64,000 bases of DNA from Psychrobacter sp. DAB_AL43B (lineage in GTDB: Bacteria > Pseudomonadota > Gammaproteobacteria > Pseudomonadales > Moraxellaceae), in the NCBI RefSeq assembly GCF_900168255.1, contig NZ_LT799838.1, positions 558,001-622,000 on the forward strand. The letters run 5' to 3'. Below are positions 47,006 to 64,000 of this stretch, in pieces. Position numbers and translations under genes: made by a program. The notes beneath the pieces are model-generated. The model was not told the origin of the DNA. It made no database searches and was given only the letters and a program-made list of their open reading frames with translations. Each line of letters opens with the position of its first letter. The first letter of the stretch is position 1.

Positions 47006-47203
47006 TAATAAAAACATTTTTTAGTTAAATAATTTCTAGTAGTCAATTATTAATAATAAATTCTAGGCAAAACGAATATCTAATAACTGTTTAATGAAAC
47101 AATAATCACTATTGAGTAATGTATAAACGACAAATAATCTATTTAAAGGCATGGTATTAACTATTTTAAATTCGATTTGAATGTTCAAATTTAGGGAGTG
47201 AAC

Positions 47204-49216
47204 GTGGATATACTTATTATCGTTGGCGTGGTTGTCATACTGGCATTTGTTTTTGTTATGGCAGCACTTTTGATGCTGAAAGCCTTTTATATTAAGGTGG
47301 AGCAGGGTACGGCGCTCATTATTAACGGGGTTAATAAAATTGCCGTACGCTTTGATGGTGGCTTTGTTTGGCCGGTTATCAACAAAAAAGAACTAATGAG
47401 AATCTCGCTTATCACCTTAGAGGTCGATAGACGAGGTAAAGAAGGACTGATTTGCGCGGATAACATGCGTGCTGACATCACAGTTGCGTTTTATTTGCGC
47501 GTTAATGAAACCGAAGAAGACGTTCTTAAGGTTGCTAAATCTCTTGGCGCTGAGAGAGCATCAGACAAAGTCGCTGTTAATGAGCTGTTTAATGCTAAGT
47601 TCTCGGAAGCATTAAAAACAGTGGGTAAGCAAATTGATTTCGTTAAACTGTTTGAAAATCGCAGTGAGTTTCGTGACAGTATCGTTAAAGAGATTGGCAA
47701 TGATTTAAACGGCTATATCTTAGAAGACGTGGCAATTGATTACTTAGAGCAAACGCCAAAATTATCGTTAGATTCAAGTAATATCTTAGATGCTGAAGGT
47801 ATCAAAAAGATTACTCAACTGACGGCCTTTCAAAACATCATTACCAATGAGCTTGAGCGTGATGAAGAGCTAGCGGTTAAAAAGAAGAACGTTGAAACTA
47901 GAGAAGCTATGCTTGAGCTGGAACGTCAGCAAGCGGATGCTGAAGCCAGACAACACCGTGAAATATCTTCTGTGATTGCACGTGAAACCGCTGAAACGCG
48001 CAAGATTGAAGAAGAAGAACGTAAAAAATCTGAGACAGCCGTGATCATGGTTGAGCAAGATTTGGCGATTCAGCGTGAAAATCAACAGCGTGAAATCGAA
48101 GTGGCTGGCCAAAACCGCTTGCGTGCTGTCGTCATCGAAGAAGAGAAAGTCACGCGTGCTCGCGATTTAGAAATCGTCTCGCGTGAGCGTGAAGTTGATT
48201 TACAGCGTATCGAAGCTGAACGCGCGATTGAGCTTGAGAAAAAAGAAATCGCCAACGTCATTCGTGAGCGTATTGCAGTAGACAAAACCGTTGCTCAAGA
48301 AGAAGAGCGTATCAAGGAAGTCCGTGAAGTCAGCGAAGCTGAGCGTTCTAAGCAAACACGCGTATTAGCAGCTGAAGCAGATGCGGAAGAAATCAAAGTA
48401 CGTCAGGTCAAAAAGGCGGAAGCAGAAGAGCTATCTGCTAAGCATAAAGCCGTTGAGATTACCACGCTGGCTGCCGCCAATCTTGAAGCCGCTGCTAAGG
48501 ATTCTGAAGCTAAAATAAAAATGGCTGAAGGTATTAAAGCGGAAGAGTCTGCGCATGGATTTGCTGAAGCAGCTATCCAAGAAGCCAAGTCAGTCTCGTT
48601 AGAGAAAGAAGGAATTGCCAAAGCCAATATTATCAAGGCCACAGGGCAGGCTGAAGCACAATCAGAACGGGAAAAAGGCATGGCTGATGCTGAGGTTATC
48701 GCAGCTCGCGGTGAGTCAAATGCTAAAGCCGAGCGTGATATCGGGTTAGCAAATGCTCAAGTTATCGCCGCTCGCGGTGAATCAAATGCTAAGGCGGAGC
48801 GTGAAGTTGGGCTTGCAAAAGCTGAAGTAACCCGCGCCCATTTCCAAGCGGAAGCCGATGGTCTGGTCGAGAAATTCAATGCCATGGGCAGCATGAGCAA
48901 AGAAGCTCGCGAGCACGAAGAGTTCCGTATGGGACTTGAAACGGCATTGCAAGAAGCGATGGCATCGATTGAAGCCGGTAAAGAGATTGCGAAAGAAAAC
49001 GCTGAAGTATTGGCAGTGGCGCTACAAAAAGCCAAAATCGATATCGTTGGCGGTGAAGCGCACTTCTTTGATAACTTTGCTAAGTCATTGTCGATTGGTA
49101 AAGCAATTGACGGTCTCGCTGGCAAGTCAGATACGTTGAGCGGCATTATCAATACGATGATGGCCAATCAGGTAATGAGCAAAGCCAATAAGCAAAGCGA
49201 TGACAGACCTGCTTAA
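47204..49216 (+). CDS. yqiK: Flotillin (YqiK-like)
   Basis: A 670-residue membrane-scaffold protein. One N-terminal membrane segment (ILIIVGVVVILAFVFVMAALLML) is followed by an SPFH domain (about 45-215). A long Glu/Ala/Arg-rich coiled coil (about 225-560) and a flotillin C-terminal region (GGEAHFFDNFAKSLS) complete it. Inside the coiled coil is a 22-residue tandem duplication (IAARGESNAKAER). AGGGAG sits 5 nt before GTG 47204, which I prefer over GTG 47198. It belongs with the YqiJ-like gene just upstream. Confidence 0.92.
   Translation: MDILIIVGVVVILAFVFVMAALLMLKAFYIKVEQGTALIINGVNKIAVRFDGGFVWPVINKKELMRISLITLEVDRRGKEGLICADNMRADITVAFYLRVNETEEDVLKVAKSLGAERASDKVAVNELFNAKFSEALKTVGKQIDFVKLFENRSEFRDSIVKEIGNDLNGYILEDVAIDYLEQTPKLSLDSSNILDAEGIKKITQLTAFQNIITNELERDEELAVKKKNVETREAMLELERQQADAEARQHREISSVIARETAETRKIEEEERKKSETAVIMVEQDLAIQRENQQREIEVAGQNRLRAVVIEEEKVTRARDLEIVSREREVDLQRIEAERAIELEKKEIANVIRERIAVDKTVAQEEERIKEVREVSEAERSKQTRVLAAEADAEEIKVRQVKKAEAEELSAKHKAVEITTLAAANLEAAAKDSEAKIKMAEGIKAEESAHGFAEAAIQEAKSVSLEKEGIAKANIIKATGQAEAQSEREKGMADAEVIAARGESNAKAERDIGLANAQVIAARGESNAKAEREVGLAKAEVTRAHFQAEADGLVEKFNAMGSMSKEAREHEEFRMGLETALQEAMASIEAGKEIAKENAEVLAVALQKAKIDIVGGEAHFFDNFAKSLSIGKAIDGLAGKSDTLSGIINTMMANQVMSKANKQSDDRPA
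48692..48823 (+). repeat. 66-bp tandem duplication inside the flotillin gene
   Basis: Two in-frame 66-nt units (48692-48757 and 48758-48823) encode the 22-residue repeat with IAARGESNAKAER at its centre. Third-position differences show the duplication is not recent. The length equals about three coiled-coil heptads. Confidence 0.85.
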
Positions 49217-49591
49217 TCTATAGCCAGTCTTAAATAAGAGAAGTATAGATGTTATCACGTACTGCTGGGATGAATTTTTCTTGCTTGCTGTGCCTGCGCA
49301 GACAGAGGCTGCGAAAAATTAATCTCAGCAGCACTGTATACTTTTAAAAATAGATTAACTATCAATATTGACCATGCACACAATAGTAAATGAAGAGTGT
49401 TATTAAAGTAAGTGGTGATCTAGGTTGCCATTTACTTTTTGCCAACTCAAAGTCAACCCTGACAGTGAGTTGGTTAATCTAAAAAAACCGGCAGTGATTA
49501 ATTGTTTTTTTAGATTAACCAAGTGCTTATTTGATTCAAAAAATTCCTTAGATTTATCTTATTGCCTAAAAATAAAAATGGACGAGCAACG
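49217..49591 (+). other. Gap between flotillin and giant ATPase genes
   Basis: 375 bp holding copy 3 of the dispersed hairpin repeat (49253-49338) and otherwise AT-rich sequence. The gap and repeat suggest that the ATPase gene has its own promoter or is only partly cotranscribed with the flotillin gene. Confidence 0.45.
49253..49338 (+). repeat. Dispersed intergenic hairpin repeat, copy 3
   Basis: Arms GTACTGCTG-GAT and ATC-CAGCAGCAC pair; the palindrome is 49259-49334 (76 nt, the same length as copy 2). The core TTGCTTGCTGTGCC...CAGACAGAGGCT matches the other copies. Confidence 0.85.
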
Positions 49592-52500
49592 ATGGCGGAT
49601 ACGCAGAATTCAATCGATTCAGGTAGCAAAGACCAACATAATAAAGCCGAGCAAACAGATCAGGCGGTTGCTTCAGGTAATGCTTATGAGCTTATTAAAA
49701 AACGCCTCACAAAGCAAGGCAGTCGTCTAGAGCAACAAACTGCCAAGCTGAATCATGCGCGCCTGCAAGAATTTGGCAGCACTCAGATGCAAGTCATTGC
49801 TCGCACCCGTATTCGTACCGAATATAACTGTGTGGCGCAAGATATGGTACAAGTAGGCGAGTACCTGCTATTTGGCTACAATGTATTTATGGGTCTCAAA
49901 CGTGCGAGTAATATCAAAGATGTGCTCTCGCTATATCGTTTGAGTGAGCCAGCAGAGGGCGAAGAAGAATATCAGCTCGAGGAAGTAGAATTAAAAAACA
50001 CGTTTTTAGATCAAGATGCCTTTGTCCAAGACTTCAATGAGTTATATCGATATTACAAACAAACGCGGCTAATCCAGCTGACGGTTAAAGACAGCAAATT
50101 GCTAATGGCGTTCCAAATCGGTGAGCGTATCAGTGATATTCGCGTCTTTCGTTTTGCATTGGATTTTAGTGAAAGCGTGCCAGAGGCTGCGCAAGTGGCT
50201 TATGTGGATAATCGAGGTGAGCGCGATATTGAGCTTCCGCCTGCCTATGATTTTGATTGGATAGAAACCACGCGTGATCAGATGATCAACGGCAAATATC
50301 CGCATATGAATATCTTAGATACGATATTTGTCGAAACCGTCGGTGGCGATCTAACCATTAAAATTGAGGATAATACGCAATCAGGACAAGGTATTTATAG
50401 CGAGCCTGTGAATGATCGTACCCAGTCATTGACCGATGCAGATATTGCTTATGCCAAAGTGGGCAGTTTAATTTTACTCAAAGTGTTGCCGTATCGAGAA
50501 GACAGTTACCGTTATTTTGTATATAACACCTTGACCGAAGCCGTGCTGCGCTTAGACGTTATTGGACAATCATGTGTGCAGCTGCCTGAGGATCACGGCA
50601 TTATTTTCCCTGGCGGTTATTACTTACAAACAGGCGAGCATAAGTTGTTTGATGCCAATCATGCCGGTGCTAAAAACTTACAATTTAAGCGTAAAATCGT
50701 CTCACCAAACGGTGAAGATGTTCTCTTCTTATTCTACGATGTCGCTAAAGGCGTCACAGGATTGTTTCCATATAACTTGATTAAAAAGCAATTGGCCAAT
50801 CCCATTTACTGTAACGGTATGGCACTCGCTGAAGATGGTCGCTTGGTACTGTTTAGCGACCAAAGTGAAGCGTCGCGCATCCACCCGATGCAGATATGGC
50901 ATACCCCTTATGCGTCACCTGAGTATGTGAGTGAGCTGCCTGAAAGTACCAGTTTTTATGGCAAAATCGGTAATAAAGAATTGGTACGCGGTATCTCCGA
51001 TCTCTATAGCATCACTCGCCTCATCGACAACCAAAGCGTCTCACAAAAGCTCTACGAGGAGCTGGCAGACAATACCAGCCGCCTTTTTGATAGCTATTAT
51101 TGGTTGTCAGAGCCTGAGCTTGATGAGGTTGCGGGCAGTATTAAAGAAGTCACCGCCACCGCTGAGCTGGTCATTGACGAGTTTGCCAAAGTACAAAGTA
51201 TCCAAAAGCAAACCCAAAATGCGCTGAGCAATGCTGAAGAAAAACAAAACGACATCTTGCGGCAAATAAAAACCACCACCTTTGAGTCGGCAAGTGACTA
51301 TGTCGATCAGTTATCTGCGATTAGACGCCAAAAAGGCCATTTGGTTAGCTTAGAGGATTTGCGTTATTTAGATAGCGCTAAACTTGAAGTATTGCAGACT
51401 CAACTAGAAGAAGCAGAAAGTGAGCTTGCCGAAAAAACTGTGTTATTTTTAAGTGATGAAAAGGCGCTTGTGAGCTACGAAGGCGTTTTAGCTGATGTCA
51501 GTGAACGCTTAAATACCGCTGAAACCAATGCCGAATTAAAACCCGTCCTAGAACAAATCGATGAAACGGCGCAAGGTTTGGACTTATTAACTGAGCTACT
51601 AGGCACATTAGACGTTGCCGATGCCACCGTACGTACGCAAATCATTGATGATATTTCTGCTATTTATGCTCGATTAAATCAAAGCAAAGCCAAACTCAAT
51701 CACAAGCGCAAAAATCTCGGTTCTGCCGAAGCCGTTGCTCAATTTGGCGCGCAATTTAAACTGTTTGGTCAATCGATTGCCAATGCCTTATCGATTGCCA
51801 ATACGCCTGAAAAATCAGATGAGCAAATGGCAAAATTACTGGTGCAATTAGAAGAGCTAGAGAGCCAGTTTGCCGATCCAGAGACCAACAGTGGCGATCA
51901 GTTTTTAGCCGATATTATCAGTAAGCGTGAAGAGATTTACGAAACCTTTGAAAATCATAAGCAGCAATTGCTTGATGCGCGTAATCGCAAAGCCCAGAAC
52001 TTAGGTGATGGCGCATTACGGATGCTAGAGAGTATCAAAAAACGCACCCAAAGTACGGGGGTCACTGGATTTAAAGAAGAAGATGCGCTCAATACTTACT
52101 TTGCATCAGACGGACTGGTACAAAAAGTACGCGCTATCGCCAAAGACTTACAAGCGATGGGCTTTAGTGTCAAAGCCGATGACATCGATGCGCGTCTCAA
52201 AGCCATACAAATTGAAAGCTATAAGAGTCTAAAAGATAAGTCTGATTTATTTGAGGATGGCGGTCAGATTATTAAATTGGGCAAGCACCGTTTTTCAGTC
52301 AATACCCAACCATTAGATTTGACTCTACTTAGTCGTCAGCAATCCAATGGCGCGCGCGTGCTGAATTTGCATCTAACCGGTACTGACTACTACGAAGTGC
52401 TTAACAATGCCGAGCTAAACGCTTTACGCCCGTATTGGGATATGAATAGGGCTTCAGAGTCTGATATCGTGTACCGCGCAGAATACTTAGCTTATAGCAT

Positions 52501-55500
52501 CATCGAGAGTGCTAAAAACAGCCAAGACGGACTGACCGAAGCGCGTTTATATCAGGCTTATGATGAGACGCTGTTAACCTTCGATAGCAAGGGTGATATA
52601 GACGAAGACAGTCCGCTACCTAAACTCGTCAGAGCTTATGCGACACCGCGTTATCAGCTCGGTTATGACAAAGGCATTCATGACCATGATGCCACGCTGT
52701 TATTGCTACAGATCTTACCCACGCTACGTCAAGCGGGTTTGCTAATTTATACCCCGCAAGTACGGGCGTTGGCGCAATTATTCTATTGGCAATTAAGCCT
52801 CGTACAAGCACTTGGCTTAGAAGCACTACAGCAATTTGGTTATGATGCTTGGTTAAATGATTCGGTGCTGACGCGAGTGAGTAACTGGACAGATAGAGCC
52901 ATCACCGCTGAACAACTGCGCCGTACGTTAGGTAGTGATACTGCCAAAGCTTTGTTGGTTGAAGACATGACGCACGTGATGCGTAACTTTGTCGCCGCTT
53001 ATAGTGACGATAAATTTAGTGTAGAGAACAGCTCAGATTCAGAAACTGGTCAAATTCATAAAACCACTCTTTTTAATAATACTACTGTCTTTCAGCAAAG
53101 CTATGTGCAACTTGCTAGTGAATATTTGGTCAGCGTCATGGGACAAGTCAGTACGCCCAATGGCAATATCGAGTGGCAGACTAGCCAACAAGCCCAGCAA
53201 TTATGCGAGCAGCTAAGTAAAACTTTGAATAGCTCGTCAGGTAGTGCGCAAAATACTGCTGGTTTTGAGCAATTACAGTCTTCAATCGGCAAGCTTGGAT
53301 TGCAGCCCAAATCGGCCTATGAATTGCTGGCCACATGGTTCCATGCGCTACTTGACCAAATATATGGCAATGCCGAAACGGATGATAGTCAGAGCGAGTC
53401 AAGCGGCGATAATGCGCTTAGTGAAGAGCAGCAGGCTAAAATCGAGGAAGAAAAAACCCTACGCCAGCAGCAATTAGCAAGTGGTCGCCATTATGTGCCA
53501 GAAGCGATTGCGGTATTGTTAACGCAGTTAAACGATGCTCAAAGAGAGGAGCTGGTTCAAAGTCTTATAAAATCAGGCACGAGCTTTGATAACATTGATA
53601 GCATCAATAAAGGTGCAATTGCCTCTTCATTCTCAGCCATATCGCTGACCAGTATTAATAATCCACTCAACCAAACCCATAATTTTGAGCGTAGCACAGG
53701 TAAAGTGTCGCTTGAGAGTCAAGTTAACCACTTATTGGGTGAGCATCAACGTATCCATCAGCAGACGCTAACCTTTGCCGTCGATGATTTCTTGAGTCGT
53801 TTGCATCATCATGATACGCAGGTTATTCCTGCCTATAGACGTTACCTAGCTCTGCGCTCAGAAATCTTGCGCGATGCCAAAGAAGCGTTGCGACTTGATG
53901 AGTTTATGCCGCGTCCCTTATCATCATTTGTGCGTAACCGTTTGATCAATGAGAGCTATTTGCCGTTAATCGGTGACAACCTTGCCAAGCAAATGGGTAC
54001 GGTTGGCGAAGATAAGCGTACCGACTTGATGGGTATCTTGATGATGATATCGCCACCAGGTTATGGTAAAACCACCTTGATGGAATACGTTGCCAACCGT
54101 CTGGGCTTAATTTTTATGAAAATTAATTGCCCGTCACTCGGTCATGACGTCACCTCTTTAGATCCTGAAAAAGCGCCTAATGCCACCGCACGCGAAGAGC
54201 TCAATAAAATTAACTTAGCCTTTGAGATGGGCAATAACGTTATGCTCTATCTCGATGATATCCAGCATACCCACGCTGAATTTTTGCAGAAATTTATCTC
54301 GCTCGGCGATGGCACACGCCGTATCGATGGCGTCTGGCAAGGAAAAACTAAAACCTATGATATGCGTGGCAAAAAATTCTGTGTGGTCATGGCAGGTAAC
54401 CCCTATACCGAAAGTGGTGAAGCTTTTAAAGTTCCTGATATGCTCGCTAACCGTTCTGATATCTATAATTTAGGCGATATTATGAGCGGCATGGAAGAAA
54501 TATTCGCACTCAGTTATATCGAGAACTCGCTCACCTCTAACGCGGTATTAGCGCCACTTGCCAACCGCGACTTAGCAGATGTCCATCGCCTCATTAAAAT
54601 GGCGAAAGCAGACAATACTAATCTCGCCCAAGTACAAAGTAGTGAGCTGACTTATCCCTATAGCAGCTCAGAGATTAATGAGATTATTGCTATCTTGCGT
54701 CATATGTTTACCGTGCAAAAAGTCATTCTTGATGTCAATCAAGCCTACATTGCTTCTGCTTCGCAAGATGATAAATACCGCGTTGAACCGATATTTAAGC
54801 TCCAAGGCAGTTACCGTAACATGAATAAAATGACCGAAAAACTATCGGCGATTATGAATGACAGCGAGCTTAACCAGTTGATAGATGACCATTATTTGGG
54901 CGAATCGCAGCTCTTGACCACAGGCGCAGAAAGCAACCTGCTCAAACTTAGCGAGATGCGCGGTGAGCTGACCGAGCAAGAAGCACAGCGTTGGGCGCAA
55001 ATCAAAACTGACTTCTTACGTAACAAAGCCATGGGCGGTGAAGACGGCGATACTGGTGCACGTATCGTGGCTCAGTTGGTCGACTTGGCGAGTGGTTTTA
55101 ATGCCATCAGTAGTCAGTTTGATAAATACCTCACCCAAAACAACCCTGAGGAAATCGCTCGCTTACGACAAGCAGGACAACAAGTGCAAATCGATGCGCA
55201 ACTTGAATCGCAAAAAATCCTCGCCGATAGCTTTATTAATAATGCCAAAGTGGTCAGCGACAGCATCGACAATGGCTTTGAAAAAAGCATGAATCAGCTG
55301 ATGCAAATCTATAAGCACGATCACAATGCTGAAAAGGCGGAAGGCGAGCATCTCAAACAAAGCCAAGAGATGCAAAAACAGCTGATGGTACAGCTGGTCG
55401 ATGCGGTTGAACAACTGGCGCAAAAAATGGCTGATGGCCTATCTCATAGCTTAACGGAAAGCTTGCTTAAGAATGATGAGAATCAAACAGCAGATAGCGA

Positions 55501-55678
55501 TATTCCTGATATTCATCAACAAACTGTACTTATGGCAAACGCACTTAAGCAAGCCCTTGCGCCGTTGACAATGCGTATGGATGAAAAGCTGGCCATTGAT
55601 AGTAGTACCGATCAATCTGGTAAGCTCATTGTGAACAGCCTCAATCGACTGAATAAAATATTTGATGATTATGACTAG
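49592..55678 (+). CDS. Giant AAA+ ATPase, 'DNA repair ATPase'/DUF3686-like
   Basis: About 2,028 residues. From memory it resembles large proteins annotated 'DNA repair ATPase' (DUF3686) found beside flotillins. The N-terminal 480 residues are beta-rich (propeller-like). A coiled coil spans about 500-720, and helical regions follow. An AAA+ module has Walker A SPPGYGKTT (1487-1495), Walker B LYLDD (1552-1556) and a GSYRNMNKM segment late in the domain. The C-terminal 180 residues are helical and Gln/Lys-rich. ATG 49592 is preferred over TTG 49562. It follows yqiJ-yqiK and precedes two zinc-ribbon genes. No experimental role known to me; membrane-linked quality control, repair or defence are all possible. 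Confidence 0.85.
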   Translation: MADTQNSIDSGSKDQHNKAEQTDQAVASGNAYELIKKRLTKQGSRLEQQTAKLNHARLQEFGSTQMQVIARTRIRTEYNCVAQDMVQVGEYLLFGYNVFMGLKRASNIKDVLSLYRLSEPAEGEEEYQLEEVELKNTFLDQDAFVQDFNELYRYYKQTRLIQLTVKDSKLLMAFQIGERISDIRVFRFALDFSESVPEAAQVAYVDNRGERDIELPPAYDFDWIETTRDQMINGKYPHMNILDTIFVETVGGDLTIKIEDNTQSGQGIYSEPVNDRTQSLTDADIAYAKVGSLILLKVLPYREDSYRYFVYNTLTEAVLRLDVIGQSCVQLPEDHGIIFPGGYYLQTGEHKLFDANHAGAKNLQFKRKIVSPNGEDVLFLFYDVAKGVTGLFPYNLIKKQLANPIYCNGMALAEDGRLVLFSDQSEASRIHPMQIWHTPYASPEYVSELPESTSFYGKIGNKELVRGISDLYSITRLIDNQSVSQKLYEELADNTSRLFDSYYWLSEPELDEVAGSIKEVTATAELVIDEFAKVQSIQKQTQNALSNAEEKQNDILRQIKTTTFESASDYVDQLSAIRRQKGHLVSLEDLRYLDSAKLEVLQTQLEEAESELAEKTVLFLSDEKALVSYEGVLADVSERLNTAETNAELKPVLEQIDETAQGLDLLTELLGTLDVADATVRTQIIDDISAIYARLNQSKAKLNHKRKNLGSAEAVAQFGAQFKLFGQSIANALSIANTPEKSDEQMAKLLVQLEELESQFADPETNSGDQFLADIISKREEIYETFENHKQQLLDARNRKAQNLGDGALRMLESIKKRTQSTGVTGFKEEDALNTYFASDGLVQKVRAIAKDLQAMGFSVKADDIDARLKAIQIESYKSLKDKSDLFEDGGQIIKLGKHRFSVNTQPLDLTLLSRQQSNGARVLNLHLTGTDYYEVLNNAELNALRPYWDMNRASESDIVYRAEYLAYSIIESAKNSQDGLTEARLYQAYDETLLTFDSKGDIDEDSPLPKLVRAYATPRYQLGYDKGIHDHDATLLLLQILPTLRQAGLLIYTPQVRALAQLFYWQLSLVQALGLEALQQFGYDAWLNDSVLTRVSNWTDRAITAEQLRRTLGSDTAKALLVEDMTHVMRNFVAAYSDDKFSVENSSDSETGQIHKTTLFNNTTVFQQSYVQLASEYLVSVMGQVSTPNGNIEWQTSQQAQQLCEQLSKTLNSSSGSAQNTAGFEQLQSSIGKLGLQPKSAYELLATWFHALLDQIYGNAETDDSQSESSGDNALSEEQQAKIEEEKTLRQQQLASGRHYVPEAIAVLLTQLNDAQREELVQSLIKSGTSFDNIDSINKGAIASSFSAISLTSINNPLNQTHNFERSTGKVSLESQVNHLLGEHQRIHQQTLTFAVDDFLSRLHHHDTQVIPAYRRYLALRSEILRDAKEALRLDEFMPRPLSSFVRNRLINESYLPLIGDNLAKQMGTVGEDKRTDLMGILMMISPPGYGKTTLMEYVANRLGLIFMKINCPSLGHDVTSLDPEKAPNATAREELNKINLAFEMGNNVMLYLDDIQHTHAEFLQKFISLGDGTRRIDGVWQGKTKTYDMRGKKFCVVMAGNPYTESGEAFKVPDMLANRSDIYNLGDIMSGMEEIFALSYIENSLTSNAVLAPLANRDLADVHRLIKMAKADNTNLAQVQSSELTYPYSSSEINEIIAILRHMFTVQKVILDVNQAYIASASQDDKYRVEPIFKLQGSYRNMNKMTEKLSAIMNDSELNQLIDDHYLGESQLLTTGAESNLLKLSEMRGELTEQEAQRWAQIKTDFLRNKAMGGEDGDTGARIVAQLVDLASGFNAISSQFDKYLTQNNPEEIARLRQAGQQVQIDAQLESQKILADSFINNAKVVSDSIDNGFEKSMNQLMQIYKHDHNAEKAEGEHLKQSQEMQKQLMVQLVDAVEQLAQKMADGLSHSLTESLLKNDENQTADSDIPDIHQQTVLMANALKQALAPLTMRMDEKLAIDSSTDQSGKLIVNSLNRLNKIFDDYD

Positions 55679-55733: not shown

Positions 55734-55904
55734 ATGGCGCATAAGAAAAAGAACGTCCGTAAAAAAGAATGTCCCGTCTGCGAGCGTGAGTTTAGCTGGA
55801 CTAAAAAGTTGGATAAAAACTGGGAAAGCATGGTCTATTGCTCCGACCAGTGTCGCCGCGTGAAAAAGTATGAAGGGTTGGATCATCAAAAAGAAGATAG
55901 ATAG
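55734..55904 (+). CDS. DUF2256-type small zinc-ribbon protein, copy A
   Basis: A 56-residue protein beginning [16 protein letters not shown]. Two Cys pairs (CPVC, residues 13-16, and CSDQC, 36-40) around a Trp-rich middle ([11 protein letters not shown]) make a zinc ribbon of the DUF2256 type. GAGAAA precedes the ATG. It begins 55 bp after the giant ATPase gene, so it may be cotranscribed. Function of the family is unknown. Confidence 0.85.
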
Positions 55905-55948
55905 GCGTTAATAGTCAGTTAGAGATATACGGAAAGAGGGGGCAGACA

Positions 55949-56116
55949 ATGGCACATAAGAAAGTAAACTTACCGCAAAAAATCTGCCCCGTTTGCCAGC
56001 GCCCATTTACGTGGCGTAAAAAGTGGGAAAAGGATTGGGAGCAGGTGATTTATTGTTCGGAGAAGTGTCGGCGGGCCAATAGTAGAAAGCGTGAGAGTAT
56101 TGAGAAGACAAATTGA
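55949..56116 (+). CDS. DUF2256-type small zinc-ribbon protein, copy B
   Basis: 55 residues, a clear paralogue of the gene 44 bp upstream: MAHKK start, [26 protein letters not shown]. The two copies agree at about half of positions, so the duplication is old. GAGGGGG precedes the ATG. It is the last gene before the AT-rich HNH-NTPase gene and may mark the left boundary of that acquisition. Confidence 0.85.
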
Positions 56117-56197
56117 TCGTCTTTCACGTTTGATTAAAGGTTAAAAGACATCTTAGAAAAAAGCTTAGTAACTTCTATTAAAGATTTAGGGTTGAAA

Positions 56198-59100
56198 ATG
56201 GCTAGAACTAAAGAGAATAATTTTACAAAACTAACCATAATACAATTAAGAGATAGGGTAGCTAACCTTTGCTCGAACCCTGATTGTAGAAAAAATACCA
56301 TTGCGGCAAATTTTGAAACTACTGATAAAACAACTCTCATAGGGGAGGCAGCCCATATATGTGCTGCAAGTTCTGGAGGGCCTAGATTTGATCCAAATAT
56401 TACAGCAACGGAAATAAAATCTTTTGAAAATGGAGTTTGGCTATGTTCGGTTTGTCATAAAATAGTTGATAGAGAGCCTTTAACATATCCTGTAGAAATG
56501 CTTAAAAGCTGGAAAACTGAAACTGAAGAATATGTTCGAAAGCAACTAGGAAAAAATTCTAACAATCAAAGTAAATTTGATGAAAAAATTCTAACTGATG
56601 AATGGTTTATAAACCAAGTTAGAGGTGAGATTGCTGATTTAGGAGCCAGATATAATAAAACACTAAACGTCGAAATTGATGAAATATCTAATAGCTTTGA
56701 TGCATTGTTAAGAAACGAGAGGTTTGAAGAGGTCATTTTCGATAATCTCAACAAGATTTATAAAATTCTGAAAGATTTCAAGTTTGATTTTGATAAACAT
56801 AACTTAGAAGAAGGCAGAACCGTTGTTATTATAGACTTAGCATTAGGTCAGCTAAAACATAGTTGGAGTGAAATTCTGAATGAGGAAATTAAGACGATAT
56901 CATTTTCAAGCATTGTAGAAATGCTTGATACGATTGGGTCTGATTTGGAAGAAATATTACAATCTACTAATGAAAGTTATAATTATTTAAATAGAAATAA
57001 TATTTGGAATTTAAGAAGCTATATTGAAAACTTAGAAAGTGTAGACTTTAATATTTTTAATAATCCGTATTTAGTTATTTATGGAAAAGCAGGTGTTGGT
57101 AAATCACATTTATTAGCCGATTTAGCATCTAATATAATTAATAATAATAATAAATGCATTTTGATATTAGGTCAGAAACTCAGTAATCAGGACAACCCGT
57201 GGAGTCAGATTTTAAGAAATGAACTAAGATTAAACTATAACGAAGATAGGTTGCTAGAGATATTAAATAGTAGAGGTCAGGAGCAAAAGGAAAGATGTTT
57301 AGTTATTATTGACGCCCTTAATGAAGGACAGGGTAGATATTTTTGGAACAATTCTCTAGCAGGTTTTATTGATAAGTTTAAAAAATATCCATGGGTAGGT
57401 TTGGTCTTATCAGTACGTTCTGAGTATAAAGATGAGGTTTTGGAAGGTATTAAACCAGCTATCAGTAATGGCAATATTAGTGAGATCTTACATGAAGGTT
57501 TTGAACATAATGTTTTTGAAGCGGTTCAAGAGTTCTATAAGCACTATGAGCTACCTTTGCCAACTGAACCGATGTTAGTAGATGAATTCAAAAACCCTCT
57601 TTTTCTTAGAATATATTGCGAATATAGATCTAATGCGCCAAGTAGTGAACACTCAATAGAACTTATAACAGAGGTGTTTAACGAGTATTTAAGAATAATT
57701 AATAAAAAGTTATCACATGTTTCAAGGTTTAGTTATCGACATAGTAGTAACTATGTCAAGAGAGTATTACTCAAGATTGCAGAAGAAATTTATTTGAGTA
57801 ATGGTAGCCAAATCCATTATGAAGAGGCAATAAATCTTGTCATTAAAACTGGTTTCAAAGAGCCTAACGCAAATGGTTTCTTAGAAGCTCTAATTTCTGA
57901 AAACTTGCTACTTAGCTATGAAGATAAAAGTTCTGAAAATGAGTATGTTTACTTTGCTTTTGAACGATTCTTAGATTATTTAACAGCCGAAAATATAGTC
58001 AATAGTATCGACCCTTCGGATAGTTTTGATAAATTATTCGAATGTGATTCAATATCAGTCAAATATAAAGGTCGAATATTGTCTACAGGTGTTTTGAGTA
58101 TCCTATCGGTACTATTTCCTGTCAACTTTAAGCTAGAGTTTTTTGAAGTTTTTGTAAATGATAAAATATATCAGAACTATAGTTTAGGTCATGCGTTTAT
58201 TGATAGCTTACTTTGGAGATGCGAAGAGGATATTTATTTAGATAGATGTAAAGTATTTTTTGATAGAAATATTTCACAAGATGGAGACTTGTTCCACCTT
58301 TTTATTAATCTAAGGTATCAGGTTGCTGGCCGTACTAACCATCCTTTCAATGCTAAAAATCTTAATTTATGGCTAAATAGTTTTACTTTAGCTGATAGAG
58401 ATGCATTATGGACGACTCATATTAGTAGTCGCATTTATGAAACTTCATCAATCTATAATCTAATAAATTGGGCAAAGAAGTCAGCTTTTTCTGAAGGACT
58501 ATCTAACGCTAGTCGTAGGTTAGTTGGAATCAGCTTATCATGGCTATTTACAAGTACAAATATTAAGTTACGTGATAATGCAACATTAGCTCTTGTTAGG
58601 TTACTCCAAAATAAGTTATCAATTGCTTTTGAAGTCATAGAAATCTTCAAAGATGTGAATGATCCTTATGTTCTAGAAAGAGTTTTTGCCTCAATATATG
58701 GAGCAGTTTTATCTTCTCAGCAATTTGAAGGATTGCATAGCATTTGTGACTATTTAGTTGAAGGTTTCTTTACTCAAGATGAGATTTATCCCAATGTTCT
58801 CGTAAGAGACTATGCTAGAAATATTGTTGAGTATGCTCAATACAAAGAGGTTATTAATATTAGCGAGCAGAAACTTGAGTTATGTAGACCTCCCTATATA
58901 AGCGAGTATCCAACTAATCTTCCAACTAGAAAAGAGATTGTTGAAAATTATCATCCTGAGAGTATAGTCAAAGATAATTCTGAATACCGGTTTGTAGGTA
59001 GCAAGATTATTAGTTCCATGACAACTGAATACGGTGCTGGTACTGGAGGGTATGGGGACTTTGGAAGATATGTATTCCAATCAGCATTCCGTAATTTCAA

Positions 59101-60250
59101 ATATCTTAATGTTTCAAATTTGAGCAATTATGCAGTACAACTTATTTTTGAGCGTTATGGGTATGATTTAAAGAAGCATGAAGATTTTGATAAACACGAG
59201 GCAACCAGTGGTGATCAACATACAAACGGTATTGAAAGGATAGGTAAAAAATATCAGTGGATAGCTTTGTATGAGGTTTTTGCAAGAGTGTCTGATAATC
59301 ATGAAATGATAGACCCGTCTACTAAACATGGAGAGTCAGAAATTAAAATATGGTACGACGGTTCTTTAGATAATTCCATTCGGGATATAGATCCTACTTT
59401 TATTGCTCCCGAAAAAGATGATCTGAAAATTATTATGAATCCAACATATGAAGATTGGTATGATAGTTTTGAAGCATGGGTAACATCTAGCGAAAACCTA
59501 ATAAAACCAAGAGAGCTTATTTTAAAAAAATATGCTGACCAAGGATGGTTTAGTTTACAGCAGTATATTACCTATGAGCCAAAACCGAGACTTGGCGAAG
59601 ACATTTATTCTGGTGCCTATCAAAAAATATGGTACAAAGTTCAAGCATATCTTATTAAAGATACTGAATTTAATAATGTTATTGAAAATTTAAATAATAA
59701 GAATTATATGGGAAATTGGATGCCCCAACCCGCTCAAAGATATTATTTGTTTAACTTAGAATACTACTGGTCACCACTATTTAAAATGTATGAGAATCAG
59801 TATTATGGAGACTATGGCTGGCGAGATATTAAACAAGATTTTGATGGGAGATCTTTAGGTAAGGCTTATATTTGCACAGAAGAACATAATTGGGAAGGAG
59901 GAAAAAACTCAGATTTAGCTTATGGTATACTTTCTCCTAGTAAATTAGTATGGCAAGAACTAAATCTAGTTAACTCTAAGTATGCTGGTGCATGGCTTGA
60001 TGAGAATGAAGAAGTCGTTTTATTCGATGGCTCTTTGTATGGTAATAAAGTTGAAAATTTACTTATTCGTAGAGATAAGTTAGAAGAGTTACAGAGTAAG
60101 ACTGGTTGTAGACTAGTATGGACGATATTAGGTGAAAAAATCGCAATGGATAAGGGTCGTGATGGTATTAATAAAAGACTGGAAATTTCAGGCCTATATT
60201 ATTATGAGAATGGAGAAATTAAAGGTGAGCAGGATTTCTTTGTAGAATAG
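56198..60250 (+). CDS. HNH nuclease fused to a STAND-like P-loop NTPase
   Basis: 1,350 residues. The N-terminal HNH domain has Cys25/Cys30, the EAAHI His53, Asn78 and Cys83-x-x-Cys86-His87 (NGVWLCSVCHKIVD). A helical linker leads to the NTPase: Walker A GKAGVGKS (296-303), Walker B-like VIIDALNEG (Asp372) and LVLSVRSEY (about 405). The remaining 850 residues show no family I know; the first part looks helical and the last third is Tyr/Trp-rich. Nuclease-NTPase-sensor order resembles Avs-type (STAND) anti-phage proteins, but this is inference. AGGG lies 6 nt before ATG 56198. The gene is visibly more AT-rich than its flanks, with many AAT/ATA/AGA codons, which suggests transfer. Confidence 0.85.
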   Translation: MARTKENNFTKLTIIQLRDRVANLCSNPDCRKNTIAANFETTDKTTLIGEAAHICAASSGGPRFDPNITATEIKSFENGVWLCSVCHKIVDREPLTYPVEMLKSWKTETEEYVRKQLGKNSNNQSKFDEKILTDEWFINQVRGEIADLGARYNKTLNVEIDEISNSFDALLRNERFEEVIFDNLNKIYKILKDFKFDFDKHNLEEGRTVVIIDLALGQLKHSWSEILNEEIKTISFSSIVEMLDTIGSDLEEILQSTNESYNYLNRNNIWNLRSYIENLESVDFNIFNNPYLVIYGKAGVGKSHLLADLASNIINNNNKCILILGQKLSNQDNPWSQILRNELRLNYNEDRLLEILNSRGQEQKERCLVIIDALNEGQGRYFWNNSLAGFIDKFKKYPWVGLVLSVRSEYKDEVLEGIKPAISNGNISEILHEGFEHNVFEAVQEFYKHYELPLPTEPMLVDEFKNPLFLRIYCEYRSNAPSSEHSIELITEVFNEYLRIINKKLSHVSRFSYRHSSNYVKRVLLKIAEEIYLSNGSQIHYEEAINLVIKTGFKEPNANGFLEALISENLLLSYEDKSSENEYVYFAFERFLDYLTAENIVNSIDPSDSFDKLFECDSISVKYKGRILSTGVLSILSVLFPVNFKLEFFEVFVNDKIYQNYSLGHAFIDSLLWRCEEDIYLDRCKVFFDRNISQDGDLFHLFINLRYQVAGRTNHPFNAKNLNLWLNSFTLADRDALWTTHISSRIYETSSIYNLINWAKKSAFSEGLSNASRRLVGISLSWLFTSTNIKLRDNATLALVRLLQNKLSIAFEVIEIFKDVNDPYVLERVFASIYGAVLSSQQFEGLHSICDYLVEGFFTQDEIYPNVLVRDYARNIVEYAQYKEVINISEQKLELCRPPYISEYPTNLPTRKEIVENYHPESIVKDNSEYRFVGSKIISSMTTEYGAGTGGYGDFGRYVFQSAFRNFKYLNVSNLSNYAVQLIFERYGYDLKKHEDFDKHEATSGDQHTNGIERIGKKYQWIALYEVFARVSDNHEMIDPSTKHGESEIKIWYDGSLDNSIRDIDPTFIAPEKDDLKIIMNPTYEDWYDSFEAWVTSSENLIKPRELILKKYADQGWFSLQQYITYEPKPRLGEDIYSGAYQKIWYKVQAYLIKDTEFNNVIENLNNKNYMGNWMPQPAQRYYLFNLEYYWSPLFKMYENQYYGDYGWRDIKQDFDGRSLGKAYICTEEHNWEGGKNSDLAYGILSPSKLVWQELNLVNSKYAGAWLDENEEVVLFDGSLYGNKVENLLIRRDKLEELQSKTGCRLVWTILGEKIAMDKGRDGINKRLEISGLYYYENGEIKGEQDFFVE

Positions 60251-60309
60251 TCATAAAAATGTTTATTAGAAAAAAGACCTAGAACCACGATAAATACCCG
60301 AAAAAAATG

Positions 60310-60432
60310 CGATGATATCGCTAGCCCCAATTGTCGAGGATATAATACGGCTAGGCAAGTTGTGGTGGATTACTTTGAGACATCATCGAGCCGACAGGAA
60401 CGGCTCAAAACGCAGCCACCACTTTGACTAGC
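60310..60432. other. Nested palindromic element of unknown nature
   Basis: Outer arms CTAG-CAA (60351-60358) and TTG-CTAG (60424-60431), then GTGGTGG (60362-60368) with CCACCAC (60416-60422), then an inner hairpin GAGCCG/CGGCTC (60388-60406). Upstream is a small hairpin, GCGAT/ATCGC. It could be a structured RNA or a remnant end of a mobile element. Confidence 0.5.
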
Positions 60433-60437
60433 AGATA

Positions 60438-60478
60438 GAAATAAAAGCGGGATTGGCTACCTAAACAACCAATCCCGC
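60438..60478 (-). terminator. Terminator-like hairpin beyond the metH-tail remnant
   Basis: GCGGGATTGG and CCAATCCCGC pair perfectly around 12 nt, and the minus strand continues TTTTATTT. It would end the symporter transcript and, before the duplication, perhaps metH itself. Confidence 0.75.
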
Positions 60479-60515
60479 ATAAAACATTTCTCTGGAAAGC
60501 TCTAATTAAAATCAA

Positions 60516-60590
60516 CCCTACAAATTCCGATTCAACCACTTTTCAGCAGTTTTTATATCACTACCTTTACGGTCAGCATAAAATTTTAGC
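60516..60590 (-). pseudogene. Remnant copy of the metH 3' end
   Basis: About 75 bp align with 61744-61818 at roughly 80% identity by eye (about 14 differences). The reading frame and stop codon are kept: it encodes [24 protein letters not shown], against [24 protein letters not shown] in metH. It has no start and no upstream coding sequence, so it is a remnant or attachment-site-like duplication and not a gene. Confidence 0.8.
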
Positions 60591-60616
60591 AGAATATAAA
60601 TAAGAAGAACAGTGAC

Positions 60617-61546
60617 TTAACGAGCATCTCTCTTTGCAAAAATATTGGCAACCAGCGCACCACTAAAGTTATGCCACACACTAAATATTGCACTAGGCAA
60701 GGCAGCGACAGGATTGAAATAAGTCGCAGCAAGAGCAGCACCAAGCCCAGAGTTTTGCATACCCACTTCAATCATAATGGCACGGCGTTGCTTCTCAGTG
60801 AAGCCGGATAAGCGAGCGATTAGATACCCTAAGGTATAACCCAGCATATTGTGTAGGGCAACTACGATAAAGACGATAGCACCACTTTCTAAAATAGTTG
60901 CTTTAGAAACCGCGACAACGGCAGCTATGATAATTGAGATACCCAATACCGAAATCATAGGCAATATCTCGACAGCAAATTCGATTTTCTTACCCAAAAA
61001 TTTGTGGAAAATAACCCCTAATAATATCGGTAAAATAACGATTTTAGTAATGGTTAGCATCATACTGGCTAAATCAATATCAATCAGCTGACCGGCAAAC
61101 ACATTTAAGAGAATAGGGGTCAAAAAAGGCGCTAGTAGGGTTGATATAGAGGTAATGGCGACACTTAACGCTACATCGCCTTTGGCTAAGAAAGTAATCA
61201 CATTACTAGAAGTACCACCGGGGCAACAACCAACCAAGATAACGCCAACGGCGATTAAAGGATCAAGATTAAAGATGACGGTTAGCAAGTAGGCAATCAA
61301 AGGCATCAAAGTAAATTGCGCCAGCAGCCCTACCAATACAGGTTTAGGTCGCTTGATTATTTCTACGAAATCTTCCGCCTTCAAAGTCATACCCATACCA
61401 AACATGATGATTCCCAATATGGGTACAATCAAAAAAGCCAACGATGCGAAGAATGTAGGAAAAATAAATCCTAAGACGGCACTGACCAATGCCCAAATTG
61501 CAAAAGTTTTGCCAATCCAACTAGAAAGTAGAGCAATTTGTTTCAT
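60617..61546 (-). CDS. Bile acid:sodium symporter family transporter
   Basis: A 309-residue BASS-superfamily membrane transporter with about nine to ten hydrophobic segments. It carries the family motifs GMGMTLKAEDF and VGCCPGGTSSNVITFLAKGDVALSV (Na+ site region) and EVGMQNSGLGAALA (second crossover helix). The substrate is unknown; bacterial members carry organic anions such as pantoate or keto acids as well as bile acids. ATG 61546 is preferred over TTG 61558. It lies between metH and a duplicated metH tail, which suggests that it arrived as an insertion. Confidence 0.9.
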   Translation of the reverse strand: MKQIALLSSWIGKTFAIWALVSAVLGFIFPTFFASLAFLIVPILGIIMFGMGMTLKAEDFVEIIKRPKPVLVGLLAQFTLMPLIAYLLTVIFNLDPLIAVGVILVGCCPGGTSSNVITFLAKGDVALSVAITSISTLLAPFLTPILLNVFAGQLIDIDLASMMLTITKIVILPILLGVIFHKFLGKKIEFAVEILPMISVLGISIIIAAVVAVSKATILESGAIVFIVVALHNMLGYTLGYLIARLSGFTEKQRRAIMIEVGMQNSGLGAALAATYFNPVAALPSAIFSVWHNFSGALVANIFAKRDAR

Positions 61547-61667
61547 AACCTTTCTCAAAATAGTGAAGTAGATAATAATCTAGCATGTATATAGGCAGGA
61601 AATGATAAAAGTATTTTGTTATCAAGGTAGCGATAAGTTTGCTGACGTGAAGCAGGTTATTACTCTA

Positions 61668-61702
61668 TAAAAAATGGCTTACTTATATTAAATAAGTAAG
61701 CC
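61668..61702 (-). terminator. Terminator after metH
   Basis: GGCTTACTTAT and ATAAGTAAGCC form a perfect 11-bp stem with a 5-nt loop, followed on the minus strand by seven T. Confidence 0.9.
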
Positions 61703-61745
61703 AAATATAATTATCAGATGTCTATGAGTTAACTCAACTTCATTC

Positions 61746-64000
61746 CTACAAATTCGGATTCAACCACTTCTCAGCAGTCTTCATATCCCAGCCTTTACGC
61801 TCAGCATAACTCTCTAACTGATCGGTGCTGATTTTACCGACGTTGAAGTATTCACTATCAGGATGCGAGTAGTAAAAGCCACTAACCGAAGACGCAGGCC
61901 ACATCGCATAGCTTTCGGTCAAGATAGTACCGATAGCATCGCCTGTACCAATCCATTCAAATAGCTTACCTTTTTCGGTATGCTCAGGGCAGGCAGGGTA
62001 GCCAGGTGCTGGACGGATACCGACGTATTTTTCTTTAATCATCTCATCATTGGTTAGGTTTTCGTCAGCCTGATAGCCCCAATACTCTTTACGAATCAGC
62101 TCATGTAGATGCTCGGCAAAGGCTTCTGCTAAACGGTCAGACAAGGCTTGAGTCATAATGGCATTATAGTCATCACCAGCGGCTTTATATTTTTCAGCGA
62201 GTGCTTCTGTACCAACTATTGAGACTGTAAAGCCACCTAAATAGTCAGTATGCGTTTCCGATGGTGAGATAAAGTCTGCTAAGCTAAAGTTTGGCTTACC
62301 ACTGGCTTTGTCACTTTGTTGACGTAAATGCTCAAACTGATAGGTTGGGTTGCCACCTTGCTGTGGATCGTTATCATAAACGGTGACAGTATCCGCACCA
62401 GTACGACGTGCTGGCATCAGTTTGAATACACCTTTCGCGACGATTAATTTCTCATCAATCATCTTTTGCATCAATTCATTAGCATTATCGAACAAATCAC
62501 GCGCTGCTTCACCAACTACATCGTCTTGTAATATTCTTGGATATTTACCTGCCAGACCCCAAGAGATAAAGAACGGTGTCCAGTCGATATAAGGCAGTAG
62601 ATTGGTGATGGGATAATCATCAAGGATAACTTGTCCTAGCTTATTAGGAGTCGGCGGCACATAGTTGTCCCAGTCATCTTTAAAGCCAATGTCGATTGAT
62701 TCCGCATAGGATATCTTGGCGGCTTTTGGTTGACGCTTGGCGAGGCGCTCACGCACTTTTATATATTCTGCGCGGGTTTCATCGATCAAACCTTGACGGT
62801 GCTCTTTTGATAGCAGCTTCGTCACTACGCCGACTGAGCGCGACGCATCTGCCACGTATATGACGCCATTGTTTTGGTATTGCGGCTCAACTTTGACCGC
62901 CGTATGTGCTTTAGAGGTCGTTGCACCGCCAATCATCAAGGGCAGCGTTATACCGCGTTCTTGCATTTGTTTGGCGACATAGACCATTTCATCAAGACTT
63001 GGAGTAATCAAACCTGATAGACCAATGATATCAACTTCCTCAGCAATTGCGGTATCGAGGATTTTTTCACAGGGTACCATCACGCCCAAATCAACAATGT
63101 CATAACCGTTACAGCCAAGCACCACGCCGACGATATTTTTACCGATATCATGGACGTCACCTTTGACGGTTGCCATGAGGATTTTGCCTTTCTTTTCACC
63201 CTCGACTTTTTCCGCTTCGATGTACGGGTTGAGCCACGCGACAGACTGCTTCATGACGCGAGCGGATTTGACTACTTGCGGTAAAAACATTTTACCGGCA
63301 CCAAATAAATCACCAACGATATTCATACCGTCCATCAGTGGCCCTTCGATGACCTCTAGTGGTCTAGGATATTTCTCCCACGCTTCTTTGGTATCGGCTT
63401 CAATAAAGGTAGTGATACCTTTTACTAACGCATGGGCAATGCGCTCTTCTACTGTGCCTTCGCGCCAAGTCATGTCGACGGTGCTGTCTTTTTTCTTACC
63501 GCCGTCCTGATAGCTCTCAGCGATGGTCATTAGCCGTTCGGTGGCATCTTGACCAGTCTCGCCTTGATTGCGGTTAAGCATCACATCTTCGATGGCATCG
63601 CGTGCTTCTTTAGGAATATCGTCATATAACTCAAGCATGGCAGGGTTAACGATACCCATCGTCAAGCCATTTTGAATCGCATGATAAAGGAATACGGAGT
63701 TGATGGCTTCACGGATAGGGTTACCACGGAAACTAAATGAGACGTTCGATACGCCGCCCGATACCATGGCATTCGGCAAGTTTTCCGTAATCCATTTAGT
63801 CGCGTTGATAAAGTCGGCACCGTAGTTGTTGTGCTCAGTAATACCGGTGGCCACGGCAAAGATATTGGGGTCAAAGATAATATCTTCAGACGGGAAACCT
63901 ACTTCATTAACCAATACGTCATAGCTGCGCTTACAAATCTGAGTTTTGCGCTCAAAGGTATCGGCTTGTCCATCTTCATCAAATGCCATGACAATAATAG
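61746..64000 (-). CDS. metH: Cobalamin-dependent methionine synthase MetH, partial
   Basis: The C-terminal ~750 residues of MetH; the frame stays open through the right edge ([14 protein letters not shown]), so the true start is outside. Visible are the end of the methyl-folate (pterin-binding) domain, the cobalamin cap domain and the cobalamin-binding domain. The latter has [10 protein letters not shown] (axial His), [11 protein letters not shown] and [13 protein letters not shown]. The AdoMet activation domain ([12 protein letters not shown]) is at the C-terminus. It methylates homocysteine to methionine, the end of the pathway begun by metX at the other side of the window. Its last 23 codons are duplicated at 60516. 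Confidence 0.98.

Follow-up and report, generated by a model that had tools for sequence, protein, structure and literature searches.

HNH-Avs2, an Avs2-type gene carrying an HNH effector at a Psychrobacter defence hotspot

The window analysed here, a stretch of 64,000 nucleotides from Psychrobacter sp. DAB_AL43B (contig NZ_LT799838.1, positions 558,001 to 622,000), holds at 56198..60250 (+) an open reading frame (ORF) for a protein of 1350 amino acids (aa), termed HNH-Avs2. It was assigned with confidence as an Avs2-type gene with an HNH effector, situated in a defence hotspot of Psychrobacter. Its product is quite probably a single-gene phage sensor of the Avs2 type, in which terminase would trigger an HNH nuclease gated by oligomerisation. 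A sequence-only reading of the same DNA had proposed an anti-phage protein in which an N-terminal HNH effector is joined to a STAND-type NTPase, and this held up against PADLOC, the solved Avs2 chain 9o4e and Cap5 structures. Its further view, that the protein was uncharacterised, with a C-terminus that could not be placed and a sensor that might be new, found no support: the NTPase and the C-terminal region match the Avs2 profile over the whole length.

Reading frame and assignment to Avs2

The gene is one uninterrupted frame that opens with ATG at 56198, runs for 1350 codons and stops at 60250; the mechanical start call falls on a TTG 6 bases upstream. All parts lie on the + strand. The HNH nuclease module (residues ~1–120, 56198..56557; end of shared homology at ~56550) carries the motifs C25-x4-C30, EAAHI (50–54) and C83-x2-C86-H87. 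It is followed by a linker (residues ~151–294, 56648..57079), predicted as mostly helical by AlphaFold2 (AF2; model of residues 151–1350, predicted local distance difference test (pLDDT) 86.4), by a P-loop NTPase of the STAND type in which Walker A (GKAGVGKS, residues 296–303, 57083..57106) and Walker B (DALNE, residues 372–376, 57311..57325) are both intact, and by the C-terminal region (residues ~481–1350, 57638..60247). C25, C30, H53, N78 and C83 were invariant in an alignment of HNH-Avs2 with 38 homologues (39 HNH sequences), as were G299, G301, K302, S303, H304 and D372 in one with 75 homologues (76 Avs2 sequences, residue numbers shifted by 150). Because key residues are invariant in both alignments, the HNH and NTPase motifs are not due to chance. 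The gene and motifs had been described in the same way from the letters, and the frame and the motif positions agreed.

The GC content of the gene is 32.2%, against 41.9% for the window, which confirms the AT-richness noted earlier; the minimum for gene-length stretches of the window is 32.1%, at 56078. AT-richness and rarity in the genus (2 of 105 genomes) would fit a degenerate, inactive remnant, but with 1350 open codons, intact motifs and relatives of 1341–1350 aa at 65–78% identity, decay is scarcely credible. A promoter and terminator scan was uninformative (18 promoter-like sites, 21.1 expected).

The PADLOC Avs2 model PDLC02162 matched residues 119–1347 at 1271 bits, with the first 151 positions of the profile unmatched, and the top six PADLOC models for the protein were all Avs2. 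Chain 9o4e aligned in two stretches, 128–921 and 979–1344 (555 bits), so that the NTPase and the C-terminal region are covered over most of their length; the unaligned stretch between them comprises 57 residues here (922–978) and 133 in 9o4e. The N-terminal effector domain varies in type among Avs2 proteins and is an HNH in this case. With 928.6 bits, the NCBIfam Avs2 model NF041813 stayed below its curated cut-off of 1000 bits, which was taken as a naming threshold and not as a defining biological trait. As this score falls under the cut-off, HNH-Avs2 is classed, on profile evidence, as Avs2 by the PADLOC definition and as part of a divergent branch left unnamed by the NCBI model. Pfam NACHT and nSTAND6 matched only below their cut-offs. 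A housekeeping family, named beforehand as an outcome that would speak against a defence protein, was rejected, no Pfam or NCBIfam model having reached its curated cut-off. No Avs4 model was among the 24 PADLOC families listed for HNH-Avs2 (E up to 1). A new kind of sensor was likewise rejected on the PADLOC and 9o4e matches, with a fold match to Avs3 as looser support; the sensor is of a known kind, and HNH-Avs2 joins an established family as a new member.

The HNH effector and its relatives

Pfam HNH_2 scored 16.1 on HNH-Avs2, under its cut-off of 21, and the HNH call therefore rests on PADLOC, on sequence matches to 9om4 and Cap5, and on Foldseek. Residues 1–120 matched 9om4, an HNH endonuclease, at 73 bits, and more weakly the Cap5 chains 7rwm (27 bits) and 7rwk (19.6 bits). 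For the predicted HNH model (AF2, pLDDT 81.2), the first nine Foldseek matches were all Cap5 structures; H53 aligned with position 56 (His56) in two Cap5 chains, and the Foldseek match 9nlg is titled as a His56Ala mutant. A literature search for a Cap5 HNH with H56 gave no match. Judged by sequence and predicted fold, the HNH of HNH-Avs2 is of the CBASS Cap5 kind, sharing with Cap5 (HNH-SAVED) the HNH fold and a catalytic-type His in the same position. In contrast to Cap5, HNH-Avs2 showed no SAVED domain when scanned with Pfam and carries instead an Avs2 C-terminus as a putative protein sensor, and the PADLOC SAVED-HNH models match only its HNH part. No HNH-Avs fusion was described in the literature searched, which did not include the main Avs paper (Gao 2022), where one may be found.

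Homologue analyses covered 120 listed of 568 homologues found. An N-terminus of at least 50 residues was present in 109 of the 120, and these N-termini form nine sequence groups: 83 belong to one non-HNH group, presumably PDDExK to judge by motif style, 6 are HNH (HNH-Avs2 included) and 20 are of other kinds. At least two changes are required to explain HNH on a FastTree tree of 114 Avs2 proteins, where five proteins of Psychrobacter type share a clade and P0094 lies far off. Among plasmids, 343 of 72,556 records matched HNH-Avs2, every one at <60% identity (30.7% for an annotated plasmid Avs2), and among phages 7 of 50,697, none over 80% of the query. A Haloplanus plasmid protein labelled 'HNH endonuclease' was not counted as an archaeal HNH-Avs2, because PADLOC Avs2 models match it from residue 1–5; no HNH model was among the PADLOC models listed for it.

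Any match to HNH-Avs2 (E up to 0.001) was found in 11 of the 105 Psychrobacter genomes, and full-length HNH-Avs2 in two, the window genome and G016, in both adjoining SBF-metH. Presence is thus patchy; universal presence at the locus, which the sequence-only reading had named as evidence against itself, was not found. Across the family, HNH at E up to 1e-15 occurred in 13 of 348 genomes, where the HNH-bearing frames other than the two Avs2 genes have 198–568 codons.

Proposed mode of action

By analogy with relatives, the STAND NTPase would keep HNH-Avs2 inactive in the uninfected cell. On infection, the C-terminal region would bind a conserved protein of the phage, the large terminase subunit being the likeliest candidate; ATP binding by the NTPase would follow, and HNH-Avs2 would assemble into an oligomer, probably a tetramer. 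This would place the N-terminal HNH domains next to one another in pairs, the arrangement of activated Cap5 tetramers, and the paired domains would cut double-stranded DNA, an abortive outcome in which phage production would stop at the cost of the cell. Avs1–4 are described as using nuclease effectors, with Avs1–3 sensing terminase and Avs4 portal (PMC12931631, PMC12724215), and Avs and other systems as sharing an interchangeable pool of fused genes whose effectors are activated by oligomerisation (PMC12799240). Four chains make up the 9o4e entry, and the top-ranking Cap5 matches are likewise tetrameric, with DNA present in two of the entries; the subunit numbers of scaffold and effector may thus agree.

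In the structure search, terminase-bound Avs3 (8dgc, with PhiV-1 terminase) was the sole one of the 50 matches listed to cover residues 771–1344 of the predicted model, which align with the C-terminal part of Avs3; portal-bound Avs4 covered the NTPase half. This search of the C-terminal half, which the sequence-only reading had suggested as a check, listed a known sensor. Chain 9o4e was not among the VIA-align and Foldseek matches listed, its presence in that library being unchecked. Two points weigh against the proposed mechanism: the Avs3 match is loose (12% identity, root-mean-square deviation 6.6; library chains of 2004–2028 residues compared with 1350), which bears on the terminase trigger, and trimerisation is stated in PMC12724215, at odds with the tetramer match.

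The same NTPase and HNH output could be set off by another phage protein, a portal or a Ksap1-like one. A Klebsiella Avs2 also appeared to bind Ksap1, reported as a second trigger for an Avs2, and JADA is given as a trigger for Avs5 (PMC12931631 and PMC12724215), and HNH-Avs2 is distant from named Avs2, as the 30.7% identity indicates. Since it is Avs3 with terminase, and not Avs4 with portal, that covers residues 771–1344, such a trigger is considered unlikely, though worth keeping in view. If the terminase-triggered, oligomer-gated reading is true, a Cap5-type HNH nuclease, which acts as a tetramer in CBASS, can be driven by the sensor of an Avs2; this would agree with an Avs scaffold that forms oligomers and yield a rule, open to testing, on which effectors go with which sensors.

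The metH/SBF–DUF2256 slot

The hotspot comprises window positions 55734–61746 and the loci L016–L093; it is bounded by metH/SBF on one side and, on the other, by the two DUF2256 genes that precede DUF3686. On the left it is anchored by a DUF3686/DUF7902 AAA ATPase (49580..55678, +; Pfam DUF3686, 648 bits), followed by a small DUF2256 gene as conserved border (55734..55904, +; Pfam PF10013, 46.2 bits) and a second one beside the cargo (55949..56116, +; PF10013, 79.5 bits). The other border is formed by an SBF-family transporter (60617..61558, −; Pfam SBF, 159 bits) and by the 3′ part of metH (61746..63989, −), with relatives in 101 of 105 genomes; the name metH follows the sequence-only reading and is not based on any family search.

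A metH match was present in 101 genomes, and 78 of these each supplied one stretch lying downstream of metH; three of the 78 stretches are truncated by contig ends. Of these 79 loci (window included), 43 have metH and the DUF3686 ATPase within ~12 kb and were treated as comparable; cargo counts cover these 43. All 43 have DUF2256-like matches directly before DUF3686 and cargo ORFs in intervals of 1.4–9.4 kb; no empty site was seen among them. Cargo ORFs are mechanical picks, and the DUF2256 gene on the cargo side can fall inside an interval. Cargo of at least 200 aa fell into 45 clusters. At 1e-10, PADLOC matched 20 of 30 cluster representatives (ten without a match): GajA, two GajB kinds, type IIG restriction, ThsA-type SIR2, AriA-like, PDC-M36A, DrmMII-type methyltransferase, OloA, OloB, retron reverse transcriptase, AbiD, HEC-06, MTase_II, LmuA, LmuB, Avs4, AbiP2, Drt2 and C3a187. 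From the gene names, the systems are presumably Gabija (GajA/GajB), Olokun and Lamassu. Thirteen further clusters gave seven PADLOC families with one member each, and the last two of the 45 are the window HNH-Avs2 and a second HNH protein, HNH-X, whose PADLOC matches are confined to the HNH. About half of the 45 clusters had no PADLOC match at 1e-10.

Cargo of matched clusters was held by 30 of the 43 loci, window included (29 without the HNH-X locus), a count that assigns cluster members by their representative and leaves out matches of the thirteen further clusters. As a control, 34 of 37 other window ORFs of at least 150 aa (leaving out three mechanical ORFs) gave six PADLOC families with one member each, housekeeping look-alikes among them; this is a non-random sample with a lower size limit than the cargo. 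Counting 23 of 45 clusters (the 20, the window gene and two of the thirteen) against at most 6 of 34 gave a Fisher p of 0.0025, and 21 of 45, without those of the thirteen, a p of 0.009. By gene content, the metH/SBF–DUF2256 slot is a defence hotspot in Psychrobacter. One search of the literature on Psychrobacter defence systems, hotspots and phage yielded no paper. The position next to defence genes that the sequence-only reading had proposed to check applies to the slot in relatives, which often holds them, but not to the window itself, where PADLOC found no second complete system among the 34 other ORFs.

The neighbouring ATPase bears on whether a regulated HNH nuclease could sense a non-phage signal, e.g. 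plasmids or damaged DNA. Pfam describes DUF3686 as 'ATPase involved in DNA repair', and STAND proteins sense varied signals. Against this stand the whole-length Avs2 relationship and the phage-defence genes often held by the site in relatives, which render a non-phage signal highly improbable. A flotillin-like gene (weak FloT match, 18.6 bits) precedes the ATPase (together 47198–55678), and the two are paired in many loci.

HNH-X (525 aa; L008:1501-3075 in G069, with kin among P0121–P0151) is a candidate unnamed defence gene at the same site as the window gene. Its HNH is 58–73% identical to that of HNH-Avs2 (five compared), whereas its C-terminal 400 residues are unrelated, and neither PADLOC nor Pfam names anything beyond the HNH; many of its 60 homologues match through the HNH part alone. 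Four HNH matches of >60% identity were found in the 105 genomes, all at the metH/SBF slot, two on Avs2 and two on HNH-X (in G069 and G054). DNA identity of HNH-Avs2 to these two sets in shortly ahead of the start codon and extends to 56550 (G069, codon 118) and 56515 (G054, codon 106). The HNH of P0001 shares 73% identity with the one in the HNH-X protein P0130 and 59% with that of P0003, while outside the HNH P0001 and P0003 are 77–81% identical; in the HNH tree, P0001 and P0002 fall among HNH-X proteins (97/94), with P0003 apart. These patterns suggest exchange of the HNH module between different C-termini. As a single clade was rejected by the approximately unbiased (AU) test neither for the five Avs2 HNHs (p 0.118) nor for P0001–P0003 (p 0.164), exchange is unproven and only a lead. 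Tentatively, and with some doubt, the slot might be a sensor exchange site, where the 5′-anchored HNH half stays and the C-terminal sensor half (Avs2, HNH-X) would be traded by recombination in the shared HNH stretch. The G054 copy of HNH-X (L007:1501-2922) is interrupted in the same slot by an apparent inserted element, by its look presumably of the IS630 type.

Signs of insertion at metH had also been noted, and correctly so. A decayed 70-bp copy of the metH 3′ end was found by repeat comparison (60512..60581, no strand assigned; 86% identical to 61740–61809), but it flanks the SBF transporter, not HNH-Avs2, and was rejected as a border of the gene. Similar copies, downstream of SBF or of metH, occur in 12 of 79 other loci searched, and such decayed repeats suggest an old insertion at the metH end. 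In L002 (P. frigidicola), 65 bases separate the HNH-Avs2 gene from SBF; G069 lacks SBF at this place, its cargo directly adjoining metH.

Unnamed systems could be sought in this compact hotspot. A full-length Avs4 (1513 bits) occupies the same slot at L069:7270-11985 (G080), which therefore takes more than one Avs type. At L078:2751-6186 and in L027, a protein without PADLOC match at 1e-10, by its look presumably GHKL/MORC-like, adjoins a DrmMII-type cytosine methyltransferase.
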